Part shown: piece after piece, positions 21,904 through 25,242 of the stretch
How the letters are laid out: each line of letters starts with the position of its first letter
How positions within the stretch are numbered: position 1 is the first letter of the stretch
Assembly: GCF_002095535.1 (NCBI RefSeq)
Contig: NZ_MLJI01000002.1
Span: forward strand, 257,786 to 321,785
DNA from: Pantoea cypripedii
Lineage (GTDB): Bacteria; Pseudomonadota; Gammaproteobacteria; Enterobacterales; Enterobacteriaceae
Direction of reading: 5' to 3'
Length of the DNA stretch: 64,000 nt
The notes under the pieces: generated by a model
What the model was told of the DNA's origin: nothing
What the model saw: the letters and a program-made list of their open reading frames with translations, nothing else
Databases searched by the model: none
Position numbers and translations under genes: made by a program

Positions 21904-21922
21904 CCCCCTGTTGATCAGGGGG
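21904..21922 (+). terminator. Hairpin after nifJ
   Basis: CCCCCTG-TTGAT-CAGGGGG, starting 20 bases after the nifJ stop. It has no T run and overlaps the end of the convergent HNH reading frame, so termination is not certain. Confidence 0.45.
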
Positions 21923-22154
21923 GCGAGTGACGGCGAATCCCGGTAAACTCAGTGCGTAATTGTTTCATGTTCTGACCGTAGTGTGCTTTACGATGATCAT
22001 TTGGGCACAACACGATCAGGTTAGACGCCTCATCCGCGCCACCTTCACTCAGTGGGATAATGTGATGCACCTCGGCAAAAATCGCCCCCTGCTGAGTCCG
22101 AAAGCCGGGCTGACCGCGTGCAGTGTATTGCGTGGTATAGGGTTCTTCTGGCAC
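21915..22154 (-). CDS. HNH endonuclease domain protein, probably truncated
   Basis: 79-residue frame with an HNH nuclease core: VHHIIPLSEGGADEASNLIVLCPNDHRKAHY, with the His pair, Asn and the C-x2-D-H-x3-H end. The start would be GTG 22154, and the in-frame sequence above it has no ATG before a stop that overlaps the end of hipA. HNH proteins usually have more sequence before this core, so this is either a stand-alone mini-HNH or the tail of a lost gene. It sits at the right edge of the nif cluster. Confidence 0.6.
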   Translation of the reverse strand: MPEEPYTTQYTARGQPGFRTQQGAIFAEVHHIIPLSEGGADEASNLIVLCPNDHRKAHYGQNMKQLRTEFTGIRRHSPP

Positions 22155-22207
22155 GGTTGGGGTGAGGTTGAGGGTTAAATTAATAGGTGCTGCCCATCCA
22201 GAGCAAA

Positions 22208-23471
22208 TTATTCAAAGACGAAAGGATTTAAAAACTGACGTTTCCAGAAAAGCCTGCGATCCACTTCTGATAATTCAGCTTCATCACAAACGTCATTCCA
22301 GCGAGACGTTATGATCTCAACCTGCGCATCGAAAATTTCCAAAGCTTCTTCTTGTGACAGCAGAAAGTTATGAGCGGTTTCCAGACATACACTGCGCTGA
22401 CTGAGTCGGTTATTACCATTAATAAGCATTGCTTGTGTGGCTTCATTTCCGGCACGACCTTGTGGACAGATGTCATATGCTGGAGTGAGTGACAACCTTT
22501 CACCATTCCAGAAGGCTGCATGGTTTCGGGCATGGTCATCAGTATTCCCGCAAAGAATATTGAAGCAGATACGTGCAAATAGCTCCCTAAGCGTCTCCTT
22601 CGGACGTTCGAAGCGCTGGCGAATGAGTTGAGCGAACTCCTCATAGCTGGCATACCTTGCCATCATGTCATCCAGGCCGAAGAGGGTTAAGGCAGACACC
22701 ATCGACCTTCGTGTCCAGCCTGCTTTGGTTTTAATTCGGTCAAACCGTTCTATCAGCAGAATATCTTTACCACCGGCGTGCGTCATGAGAACTGGCGCGC
22801 AATCCAGACCACAAAGGGAGCCTAATCTCATAGCGATAAATTCAGCTTTAACCACACTATAGAGATCGTTGCTGGCTGAGAACTTGGCAATGTATTTTTT
22901 ACCTTGTTCTTCGATCAACGCTTTTGGGCGTGCGCCACCGATAGAACTACCATGAAATAATGCCTGATCCAGTTCTGGAGTAAGGGGAATACCTCGCTCA
23001 ACACGCTCAGCCGATCGAAGTAATTCTTCCATCTCAACATTTTTTAGCGGAGCGTGGCTCATAATCCGTTGCCGATCGTTGGAAATCCAGGGCACCGATT
23101 CGGTCAGAACCTGATTCAAGCAGGTAGGTTAGTTCATCAAGTAAAGCTGTGTCGGTATCTGCTCCCCTGACACCCAATTTACGATTAATAATAACCCGTC
23201 GCCCCCATGCATCCGGTGCACTGTCACGGATAGCGGATGGCATGGTAAGTCCTGGTAATAAGGGAAGGACGCCAGATTGTAAAGGAAGCTCAGGAAGATA
23301 AATTGGAATGGCGGCGGGCTGATCCCTGATACGTTCGAGATAGCTTCTGCCGTAGTTAAAAACCAGATTTCCCGCATTATCGTTACTCAGGCGACCAGAG
23401 ACTACAGGTGATGTTTCTCCAGGCAGCCAAATCCATACAAATGCCTGTTGTGGAGATTGTTCAGAAATCAT
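22208..23471 (-). pseudogene. hipA: HipA-family serine/threonine kinase toxin, frameshifted
   Basis: Two adjacent frames together make one HipA of normal length. The N-terminal part (start 23471, stop at 23034) ends DRIGALDFQRSATDYEPRSAKKC. The C-terminal part continues as KNVEMEELLRSAERVERGIPLTPELDQALF. The break is at an A6 run (23040-23045); removing one A restores a continuous protein. The kinase motifs in the second part look intact: SIGGARPKALIE, GNTDDHARNHAAFW and AYDICPQGRAG. A shorter protein could start at internal ATG codons and lack the N-terminal subdomain. Its start overlaps the end of hipB. Decay, phase switching or a sequencing error are all possible. Confidence 0.85.
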
Positions 23472-23799
23472 CAAACGTTTCCTTCGTTTGTTTACGTATG
23501 CGTTGTGGCAGAAGACTTAATTTGTCTTCGGCCTGTTTACGGGTGCTCACTAATTTATTCGAATCAGCATCAAATAACCGTATTCCCAGCAATGCTGCTA
23601 CCTCAAAAACCATCCCGAGTTCACATTTTGGGTCTGCTTTTTCAATACGCTGCAACATGCTCCGGGATATACCCGCACGTTCCGCCAGTTCAGTTTCAGT
23701 CATCTTCTGAGTTTTACGCTCAAGGCGAATCATGGCAGCCAGTAAATACAGGGCTTCCTGGGTATAACGAGAGTAAGCCCTGGGAGCAGAACGAGGCAT
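23461..23799 (-). CDS. hipB: HipB-family antitoxin, XRE helix-turn-helix
   Basis: 112-residue DNA-binding antitoxin. The helix-turn-helix is at about residues 35-90: MTETELAERAGISRSMLQRIEKADPKCELGMVFEVAALLGI. HipB proteins bind their own promoter and neutralise HipA. The stop lies inside the start of hipA, the normal coupled arrangement. The upstream region carries six copies of an 18-base motif, candidate operators. With hipA broken, the antitoxin may persist alone. Confidence 0.88.
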   Translation of the reverse strand: MPRSAPRAYSRYTQEALYLLAAMIRLERKTQKMTETELAERAGISRSMLQRIEKADPKCELGMVFEVAALLGIRLFDADSNKLVSTRKQAEDKLSLLPQRIRKQTKETFDDF

Positions 23800-23830
23800 A
23801 TTGACCTCCTTTTAAAGGCCATTAACGTAT

Positions 23831-24020
23831 TTGATGACTTATATAGTAGCCATACTATCACTTCAGGAAGGTATAATCCATTGTCATAATGACTCACATA
23901 TGAGCCATTAAGTGGCTTAATGGCTCATATGTGAGTCATTATGATGTGCGTGCTGGTTCTGCTACACCATCAAGCAGGCCCTCCTGCACAGGTTGTGCTA
24001 ACGCGGTTCTGCCTGACTGA
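23831..24020. repeat. First copy of a 290-bp-spaced tandem duplication
   Basis: This unit matches 24121-24307 with divergence. Shared parts are TTGATGACTT at the start, CACTTCAGGAA in the middle, a large palindrome, and an end resembling the last codons of the downstream DapA-family gene (GCA GAA CCG CGT TAG here). No gene was found in 23800-24284; the interval holds these repeats, the palindromes and presumably the hipB promoter. Confidence 0.7.
23884..23944. repeat. 29-bp perfect inverted repeat with a TGG centre
   Basis: Arms at 23884-23912 and 23916-23944 are exact inverted copies by eye, around TGG. Each arm contains the 18-base motif TGACTCACATATGAGCCA. No T run follows on either strand, so this is not an ordinary terminator. 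Confidence 0.85.
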
Positions 24021-24041
24021 TTGCTAAACAATTCTTCACAT

Positions 24042-24083
24042 GCCAACACTCTTATTAAAACTTCCTTTAATAAGAGTGTTGGC
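24042..24083. repeat. 18-bp perfect inverted repeat, 6-base loop
   Basis: Arms GCCAACACTCTTATTAAA (24042-24059) and its exact inverse (24066-24083) surround ACTTCC. It lies between the two duplicated units and differs in sequence from their palindromes. It could be a bidirectional terminator or a relic end of a mobile element. Confidence 0.8.
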
Positions 24084-24120
24084 TGTTTAAATACACTTTA
24101 ATGGCTATCCCATTATTAAT

Positions 24121-24307
24121 TTGATGACTTGTATAAAAGCCCTGCCACCACTTCAGGAATGCATGAGTTATCGTCAAAATGACTCATATATAAGCCATTA
24201 ACTGGCTTAATGACTTATATATGAGTCAATATGGATTAAACGAGGGACCTGGCGCACCATCCCGCCAGGTTTTTCCTGGTTGTACTAACGCAGTTGTGCC
24301 AGCTTCG
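24121..24307. repeat. Second copy of the 290-bp-spaced tandem duplication
   Basis: This unit includes the 3' end of the DapA-family gene (GCA CAA CTG CGT TAG). Its palindrome (24180-24201 and 24207-24228, one mismatch) matches the first copy in position, and the centres are 290 bases apart. Confidence 0.7.
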
Positions 24308-25211
24308 CTTCCTGGCGGGTGATAAGGTATTCAACCTCGCTAATCGCTGCACTGCTGAGCACGCTGCCGGGACGGCGCTGTGAGGCGTGGGCAATGGCAC
24401 CACGGCGTGCCAGAATGTGTTTTCTGATTGCCAGCCCCAGACCCGGCTGTTGCTCATAGCGCATCAGCGGCAGGTACACATCAAAAATATCCTGCGCTAA
24501 ATCGCGCTGGCCGTTACTGACCAGCCGTGTCACTTCAACCATCATTTCCGGATAGCCGAAACCGGTCATTGCACCATCGGCACCGCGCGCCATCTCTTCC
24601 GGTAAGAACATCCCCGCGTTGCCGCACAGGATGGAGACACGACGACTGCCGTCTGCTTCCGACTGACGAATAGCGCTGATCTTTTGCAGGCCAGGCCAGT
24701 CCTCATGTTTTAACATCACAATGCTCGGATGCGCGGCGAACAGCCTGATAAGCACCTCTGACGACATCTGTACGCCGGTAGCAAGTGGGAAATCCTGTAG
24801 CACCACGGGCACGTCTGGCCCCAGCGTCTCGATGACGTTGCGGTAGTAGTTGAGGATCTGCTCGTCGGTGCGTAGCGCTGAAGGGGGAGCGACCATCACT
24901 CCGGCAGCTCCAGCCTCCATGACCCGGTGCGATAGCTCACCGATCGCCGCCAGCCCTGGCGCAGACACGCCGACAATCACCGGTTTGCCCGCTGCTCGTT
25001 TCAGCGTCTGGCGGGTAATTGCAACCGATTCTTCCAGCGTCAGCTTAGGCGCTTCACCCATCATGCCGAGGATCGTCAGGCCATCCGCACCCTGGTCAAA
25101 GTAAAAGTCAGTGACGCTGTCGATGCTGCTGTGATCGATAGCGCCATCCGGCAAAAATGGCGTGACCGCAATAACATAAACGCCTTTCGTCTGGTTAGTA
25201 ATCAGAGACAT
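24285..25211 (-). CDS. Dihydrodipicolinate synthase (DapA) family aldolase/lyase
   Basis: 308-residue TIM-barrel protein of the class I pyruvate-aldolase family. The N-terminal GVYVIAVTPFLPDGAID, the FDQGADGLTILGMMGE segment and VLQDFPLATG follow the family. The Schiff-base Lys is probably in IVMLKHEDWPGL. ATG 25211 is seven bases from AAGGA; ATG 25214 is adjacent. It is the last gene of a pxpB-pxpC-dapA-like operon, so it probably acts on a catabolic substrate and not in lysine synthesis (inference). Confidence 0.85.
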   Translation of the reverse strand: MSLITNQTKGVYVIAVTPFLPDGAIDHSSIDSVTDFYFDQGADGLTILGMMGEAPKLTLEESVAITRQTLKRAAGKPVIVGVSAPGLAAIGELSHRVMEAGAAGVMVAPPSALRTDEQILNYYRNVIETLGPDVPVVLQDFPLATGVQMSSEVLIRLFAAHPSIVMLKHEDWPGLQKISAIRQSEADGSRRVSILCGNAGMFLPEEMARGADGAMTGFGYPEMMVEVTRLVSNGQRDLAQDIFDVYLPLMRYEQQPGLGLAIRKHILARRGAIAHASQRRPGSVLSSAAISEVEYLITRQEAKLAQLR

Positions 25212-25242
25212 CATCGTTTCCTTGTGAGCCAGCGACGGGCAA

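Follow-up and report, generated by a model that had tools for sequence, protein, structure and literature searches.

The operator of the Escherichia coli hipBA operon is among the closest described counterparts of the locus considered here. According to two reports (PMC3376134, PMC3920265), HipB binds four operator sites cooperatively and represses hipBA, HipA serves as co-repressor, and the binding of HipA-HipB bends the operator by 70 degrees. In our own reading of this operon (L066), the operator sites TATCCN8GGATA are located at -134, -106, -67 and -39. In the HipBST module of Legionella, several 18-nt sites (O1-O3) are likewise found above hipB, and PMC10653801 describes them as conserved across species, bound by HipB and detected nowhere else in the genome; they differ from the present sites in being three and evenly spaced, with 53-bp gaps and another motif, and in accompanying a toxin that is split into hipS and hipT. 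In Caulobacter, the promoters of hipBA1 and hipBA2 carry identical inverted repeats at intervals, which are judged in PMC7029023 to be consistent with the E. coli complex, although these modules are alphaproteobacterial, unlike the one described below. Among the matches listed by the literature search, no recognised account of the operator class described here or of a duplicated hipBA operator was found.

The window, namely the whole 64-kb stretch of Pantoea cypripedii DNA that was analysed, harbors an array of near-palindromes above a hipB gene, which resembles the operator of E. coli K-12 in its 18-bp sites, its 5-bp arms around N8 and its arrangement in two pairs. The two differ in spacing (28 bp in E. 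coli versus 31 bp in the window within a pair, and 67 versus 86 bp from pair to pair) and in their letters, TATCCN8GGATA in the former and TGACTYATATATRAGYCA in the latter, the 5-N8-5 frame being all that is shared. Neither the consensus TATCCN8GGATA nor 28-bp pairs are present in the window array, and its tandem duplication is a feature of the window, unlike the E. coli K-12 operator. Judged from the sequence comparisons given below, the array is very probably the autoregulatory operator of the hipBA module, with HipB as the predicted binder.

The hipBA module and the duplicated array

The array lies directly upstream of hipB, which is followed by the Couple_hipA and HipA_C frames that characterize a hipBA module, the hipA gene being split. 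The genes of the locus are listed below.

21915-22154: HNH frame of 79 aa beside hipA
22208..23119, minus strand: C-terminal part of HipA (HipA_C kinase domain)
23034..23474, minus strand: N-terminal part of HipA (Couple_hipA), in a frame that differs from that of the C-terminal part
23461..23799, minus strand: hipB, an open reading frame for a 112-aa Xre/HTH_3 antitoxin (Pfam HTH_3, E 4.8e-09), the presumed binder of the array
24285..25214, minus strand: DapA-like gene of the DHDPS family, located above the array and on the strand of hipB

HipB matches the NCBIfam model couple_hipB, but under its cut-off, and it scores 23.9 bits with the NCBIfam model of E. coli HipB, for which the cut-off is 79. 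The hipA gene (22208-23474) consists of two overlapping frames, and both parts share one frame in eight of nine relatives. Owing to this split, which weighs against the operator reading, either HipA may have been lost or the assembly may be in error, and the co-repressor HipA may then be missing; autoregulation by HipB would manage without HipA, and co-repression would need it. In another genome of the genus (G003), hipA is broken at a different place, and the accompanying hipB relative (L034) has no ATG at the expected start.

The preliminary description had recorded an 18-bp motif in six copies, distributed over two diverged units 290 bp apart, each unit with one single copy and one head-to-head pair. 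All six positions were reproduced, together with the 290-bp distance and the start of the nearest copy 36 bases above the hipB start codon. The copies taken as single are indeed present, but they turned out to be the third sites of a four-site layout. In the 64-kb window, 10 strand-hits with at most three mismatches were obtained, every one of them at the six copies, against an expectation of 0.06; none of 100 shuffled windows reached 10 hits, the largest number being 1. The sites are given below with their approximate positions from the hipB start and with their scores under an independent matrix, which is described in a later section.

23921..23938, minus strand: proximal site 1, about -139, head-to-head with site 2, score 21.0
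23890..23907, minus strand: proximal site 2, about -108, 31 bp from site 1, score 21.0
23835..23852, minus strand: proximal site 3, about -53, 86 bp from site 1, formerly a "single" copy, score 14.1
23802..23821, minus strand: degenerate fourth site of 20 bp instead of 18, adjoining the ribosome-binding region of hipB, at the place predicted by the layout
24211..24228, minus strand: distal site 1, score 25.3, the best of the window
24180..24197, minus strand: distal site 2, score 24.2
24125..24142, minus strand: distal site 3 (weak), score 11.2, only just over the next place of the window (10.6)

At the fourth place (23802-23821), the independent matrix finds no 18-mer scoring above -5.5. The proximal pair forms a perfect inverted repeat of 29 bp, as had been noted, and the 22-bp arms with one mismatch of the distal pair are legible in the sequence, where an inverted-repeat search gives 27 bp at 89%.

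The two units are 81% identical over 115 nt without gaps (23829-23943 versus 24119-24233), and gapped alignment extends them to the following boundaries.

23829..24013, minus strand: proximal duplication unit, in which about 23998-24013 is a probable copy, now decayed, of the 3' end of the dapA-like gene
24119..24300, minus strand: distal duplication unit, overlapping the genuine dapA-like gene at its 3' end
24042..24083, minus strand: inverted repeat, perfect over 18 bp and with a loop of 6 nt, located between the units and single-copy in the genome

The inclusion of the DapA-like tail in the duplication was borne out by a gapped local alignment, in which the distal unit takes in the stop codon and the 13 coding bases before it. 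The overall divergence of the units is 19%, and the distal unit has neither the -10-like element nor the fourth site. In a scan for extra sites, 42 loci of 2-64 kb each, the window included, were searched with a matrix made from each locus's own four sites. Further sites as strong as a locus's own were found in the window only, namely the two sites of the distal pair; the locus L067, the own sites of which are poor, gave one weak far-off hit in the same scan. To judge from these sequences, the kind of operator is one known from E. coli, with an analogous two-pair arrangement, and the second strong pair of sites is particular to this genome among the 42 loci.

When the 61 genomes of the genus were searched for the dapA-like gene at E <=1e-60, it was present in two, that of the window and G006, with proteins 96% identical. 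The DNA of G006 aligns to the window on both flanks at 93-94% and has no match to 22117-24241 except a 57-bp piece, which indicates that the hipBA cassette and its array are variable at this spot. On this alignment, the dapA 3' end that adjoins the distal unit belongs to the host DNA common to both genomes, and it was probably copied to give the stretch at 23998-24013. The corresponding slot of G006 contains a longer HNH frame and, beside the dapA-like gene (L098:8518-9170), two small frames that resemble, by eye, another toxin-antitoxin pair, so that the spot may exchange such modules. Since the G006 counterpart of the HNH frame has 243 aa and a similar end, the copy in the window looks truncated. 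No match was obtained when E. coli genomes and plasmids were searched with the DNA of the region.

The preliminary description had also allowed for an undescribed repeat family, in which case a REP- or MITE-like dispersed repeat would stand beside hipB by chance, a reading that accommodates the tandem units, the palindromes and the extra hairpin at 24042-24083 between the units. The 6.55-Mb genome contains nine strand-hits with at most two mismatches to TGACTYATATATRAGYCA; all of them fall in the array, on five of the six copies, and the motif is therefore confined to the hipB locus instead of being dispersed. Among the 13 rows with three mismatches, two are in the array and 11 (at nine places) elsewhere, fewer than the 22 given in all by a reversed control pattern. 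Moreover, the interposed hairpin has no second copy, and other genera likewise have 18-bp sites in this layout beside hipB, all of which makes a chance neighbor of this kind scarcely credible.

Four-site layout above related hipB genes

The layout was derived from 50 loci encoding HipB relatives (39-78% identical), which were drawn from the genus (6), the order (3), the class (17), the family (12), plasmid records (1) and another search (11). The genus search gave a match in 29 of 61 genomes, from which the six strong loci besides the window were used; 113 plasmid records hold a HipB relative, one of which was taken, and a single phage record was left out. Relatives are sparse at E <=1e-15 with the own genome counted: the order has 4 genomes with one among 394, the class 18 among 369 and the family 14 among 392. 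Both flanks of each of 23 weak Xre loci from the genus search (L040-L062) served as controls.

When the 18-mers upstream of hipB were compared for self-similarity with no motif given, the top distance was 31 bp in both halves of the sample, with z 29.3 in the 25 closer relatives and z 20.6 in the 25 more distant ones. A motif-free fit of four sites, in which the spacing was free from 20 to 45, was then compared with 40 dinucleotide shuffles of each region. The fit exceeded all 40 shuffles in 39 of the 51 regions (the window included), a count across mutually related loci that are not independent of one another. In 37 of the 39 fitted regions the spacing within a pair is 31 bp, and in 30 of them the distance from pair to pair is 82-87 bp, the rest having 74-75, 93 or 97-98 bp; the usual site starts are near -140, -109, -54 and -23 from the ATG. 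The free fit fails in 12 of the 50 relatives, which weighs against the operator reading. Some relatives appear to hold two or three sites only; by eye, the Idiomarina loci L022 and L024 show the lower pair only, and L086-L088 are without the first site.

The layout is specific to the upstream regions of hipB. A fit score of at least 15.5 was attained in 35 of 50 such regions, compared with 2 of 400 other windows from the same loci (drawn from 813) and none of the 46 weak-Xre flanks, and the spacing of 31 was chosen in 40 of 50, 19 of 400 and 0 of 46, respectively. The 18-bp near-palindromes thus recur above related hipBA loci in a fixed geometry, as regularly spaced palindromic sites in the manner of an operator array. 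The rarer distances from pair to pair (74-75 and 97-98 bp, versus 82-87) differ by about one helical turn, which is suggestive of phasing, with the qualification that the loci at 97-98 bp all belong to the genus of the window, that L038 (74 bp) is a doubtful fit, and that E. coli is without phasing.

Promoter-like hexamers were analysed in 37 of the 51 loci, and those located between the pairs score over the shuffled mean in 30 of the 37. In 23 of these 37 loci, site 3 follows the start of the first hexamer by 28-30 bp, so that the second hexamer touches it. The counterpart in the window, read at the offset of the relatives, is as follows.

23852..23880, minus strand: weak promoter-like hexamers TGGATT-17-TAGTAT, the second touching site 3

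A consensus scan finds no promoter in the window, where the best-scoring hexamer pair is another than TGGATT-17-TAGTAT; the weakness of the window promoter by consensus is another point against the operator reading.

An RNA structure had been offered as another option, whereby the long head-to-head palindromes would act as hairpins in a dapA-hipB transcript, in processing, attenuation or termination. The minus-strand RNA of 23800-24060 does fold better than each of 200 shuffles, with a z of -7.48 that is due for the most part to the 29-bp stem, although head-to-head palindromic operators fold so anyway. The mates of a pair also mirror each other more closely than shuffled partners, with 12.86 versus 9.76 of 18 in the upper pair and 11.36 versus 9.69 in the lower pair (34 of the 50 relatives and the two units of the window), in shuffles that mix motif classes. 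However, the two sites of a pair mirror each other no more closely than do sites from different pairs of one locus (difference 0.07, p 0.89). This comparison covered 34 of 51 regions, the 14 that lack a good 31-bp fit having been set aside together with L038, L087 and L088. In addition, the mirror match is stronger in the upper pair, which would be located above the promoter and outside the hipB leader, and the spacing of 31 is kept while the letters change class, single sites being near-palindromic on their own. No terminator-like site was found in 23750-24400, and the inverted repeat at 24042-24083 has no T-run acceptable to the terminator scan. The 20 Rfam matches listed for 23400-24700, none of which attained the gathering score, belong to eukaryotic microRNA and lncRNA models. 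An RNA element is accordingly disfavoured and appears most improbable.

The differences between the two units are partly mirrored in both arms of a pair. Concerted evolution of the arms by hairpin-templated repair was considered as a candidate and dropped, because the mirror match within pairs is not above that between pairs in the 34 loci (p 0.89).

Site letters and their co-variation with HipB

The consensus of the sites was tallied from 136 sites of 34 loci, which were turned outer end first. Position 1 is T in 128 of them and position 2 is G in 129; position 5 is a pyrimidine in every one of the 136 and position 14 is a purine in 133; C at position 17 is present in 121 and A at position 18 in 101, resulting in TGNNY-N8-RNNCA across the relatives. 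The independent matrix was constructed from 64 sites of 16 of the 50 relatives, which were chosen by motif class and from which the window was excluded. Its top six places in the 64 kb are exactly the six copies (25.3, 24.2, 21.0, 21.0, 14.1 and 11.2); the next place scores 10.6, so that the sixth copy is barely over background, which also counts against the operator reading.

Relatives with other HipB types have the same layout in other letters, for example the TGACCATTATAATGGTCA and TGTTCYATTAATRGAACA classes. A second, chromosomal HipB type of the window's genus (L035-L039, 51-57% identical) has sites of another class, TGTTCY...; most of its five loci show 31-bp pairs, and the distance from pair to pair is 97-98 bp in L035, L037 and L039. 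In a co-variation test on 36 of the 51 regions, site similarity correlates with the similarity of the recognition helix (r 0.58) and of the rest of HipB (0.61), and the correlations of the DNA between sites are lower (0.28 and 0.33). The partial correlations of the sites are 0.37 with the recognition helix, a value reached by 0 of 2000 permutations, and 0.42 with the rest of HipB. Because the rest of the protein predicts the site classes as well as the recognition helix does (0.37 and 0.42), the proposal that the helix itself explains them was dropped, and this lack of a difference weighs against the operator reading. Letters that change with HipB would fit a self-regulator.

A regulator other than HipB might bind the sites and control hipBA, and an IHF site above E. 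coli hip, mentioned in PMC3376134, implies that other regulators of hip operons exist. Such a regulator, if it had further targets, should show sites elsewhere in the genome, and none were seen in 6.55 Mb; it should also keep a stable motif, whereas the letters here track HipB, in the frame of the E. coli HipB operator. Judged by these comparisons, control by another protein seems quite unlikely. The assignment of the array to HipB, which had been one of several options in the preliminary description, is well supported by the comparison, in view of the motif confined to the locus, the layout that recurs with hipB and the letters that change with HipB.

Predicted mode of action and the distal unit

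In the proposed mechanism, HipB dimers would bind the 18-bp near-palindromes TGNNY-N8-RNNCA, which in this HipB branch would be deployed as four sites in two pairs, with 31 bp (about three helical turns) within a pair. Given this spacing, both dimers of a pair would occupy one face of the helix. The upper pair would be located above the promoter, and the lower pair would begin at the -10 region and reach the ribosome-binding region; by analogy with E. coli, HipB bound to the pairs, alone or together with HipA, would switch off the operon that encodes it. As for the history of the window, we infer that the control region and the 3' end of the dapA-like gene were duplicated in tandem and subsequently diverged, in that order. 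The proximal unit, with three sites and one degenerate site, would be the working operator, and the distal unit would most likely be an auxiliary platform for HipB, serving local concentration, looping or titration, or else a slowly decaying relic.

That the array is a HipB operator whose distal unit is a functionless relic of the duplication has somewhat less than an even chance. The -10-like hexamer and the fourth site of the distal unit are gone, its third site is weak, the units have diverged by 19%, and no fitted relative has a comparable second set of sites. Against this, the distal pair outscores the proximal pair (25.3 and 24.2 versus 21.0 and 21.0), and when equal numbers of random changes (3 and 2) were introduced into the proximal pair, the distal scores were reached in 0.0% and 0.7% of trials; the same test of the third site reached the distal score in 11%. 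In the reverse direction, with the distal sites changed, the values are 8% and 20%, which are not significant, and 2% for the third site. These scores suggest, without proving it, that the distal pair has been kept as binding sites, the support being in one direction and for two of the three sites. The chances that the distal unit still matters are put at about even.

A broader reading, which we hold to be possible yet rather doubtful, would make the 31-bp pair the geometry on which higher-order assemblies of HipB or HipBA generally dock in this branch, and the duplicated distal set, promoterless yet near the consensus, part of a six-site switch that buffers or sharpens repression. Within this docking geometry, the 31-bp pair would be used twice on roughly one helix face and would have been kept as the letters drifted through several classes.

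The analysis provides a predicted operator code and geometry for a HipB branch that is spread over the gammaproteobacteria, and it discloses a natural case of a doubled operator set. The question of whether the number and the spacing of operators set the switching of hipBA, which is a model for persistence, thereby becomes testable, and if the six-site switch is real, it may set how often cells switch state.
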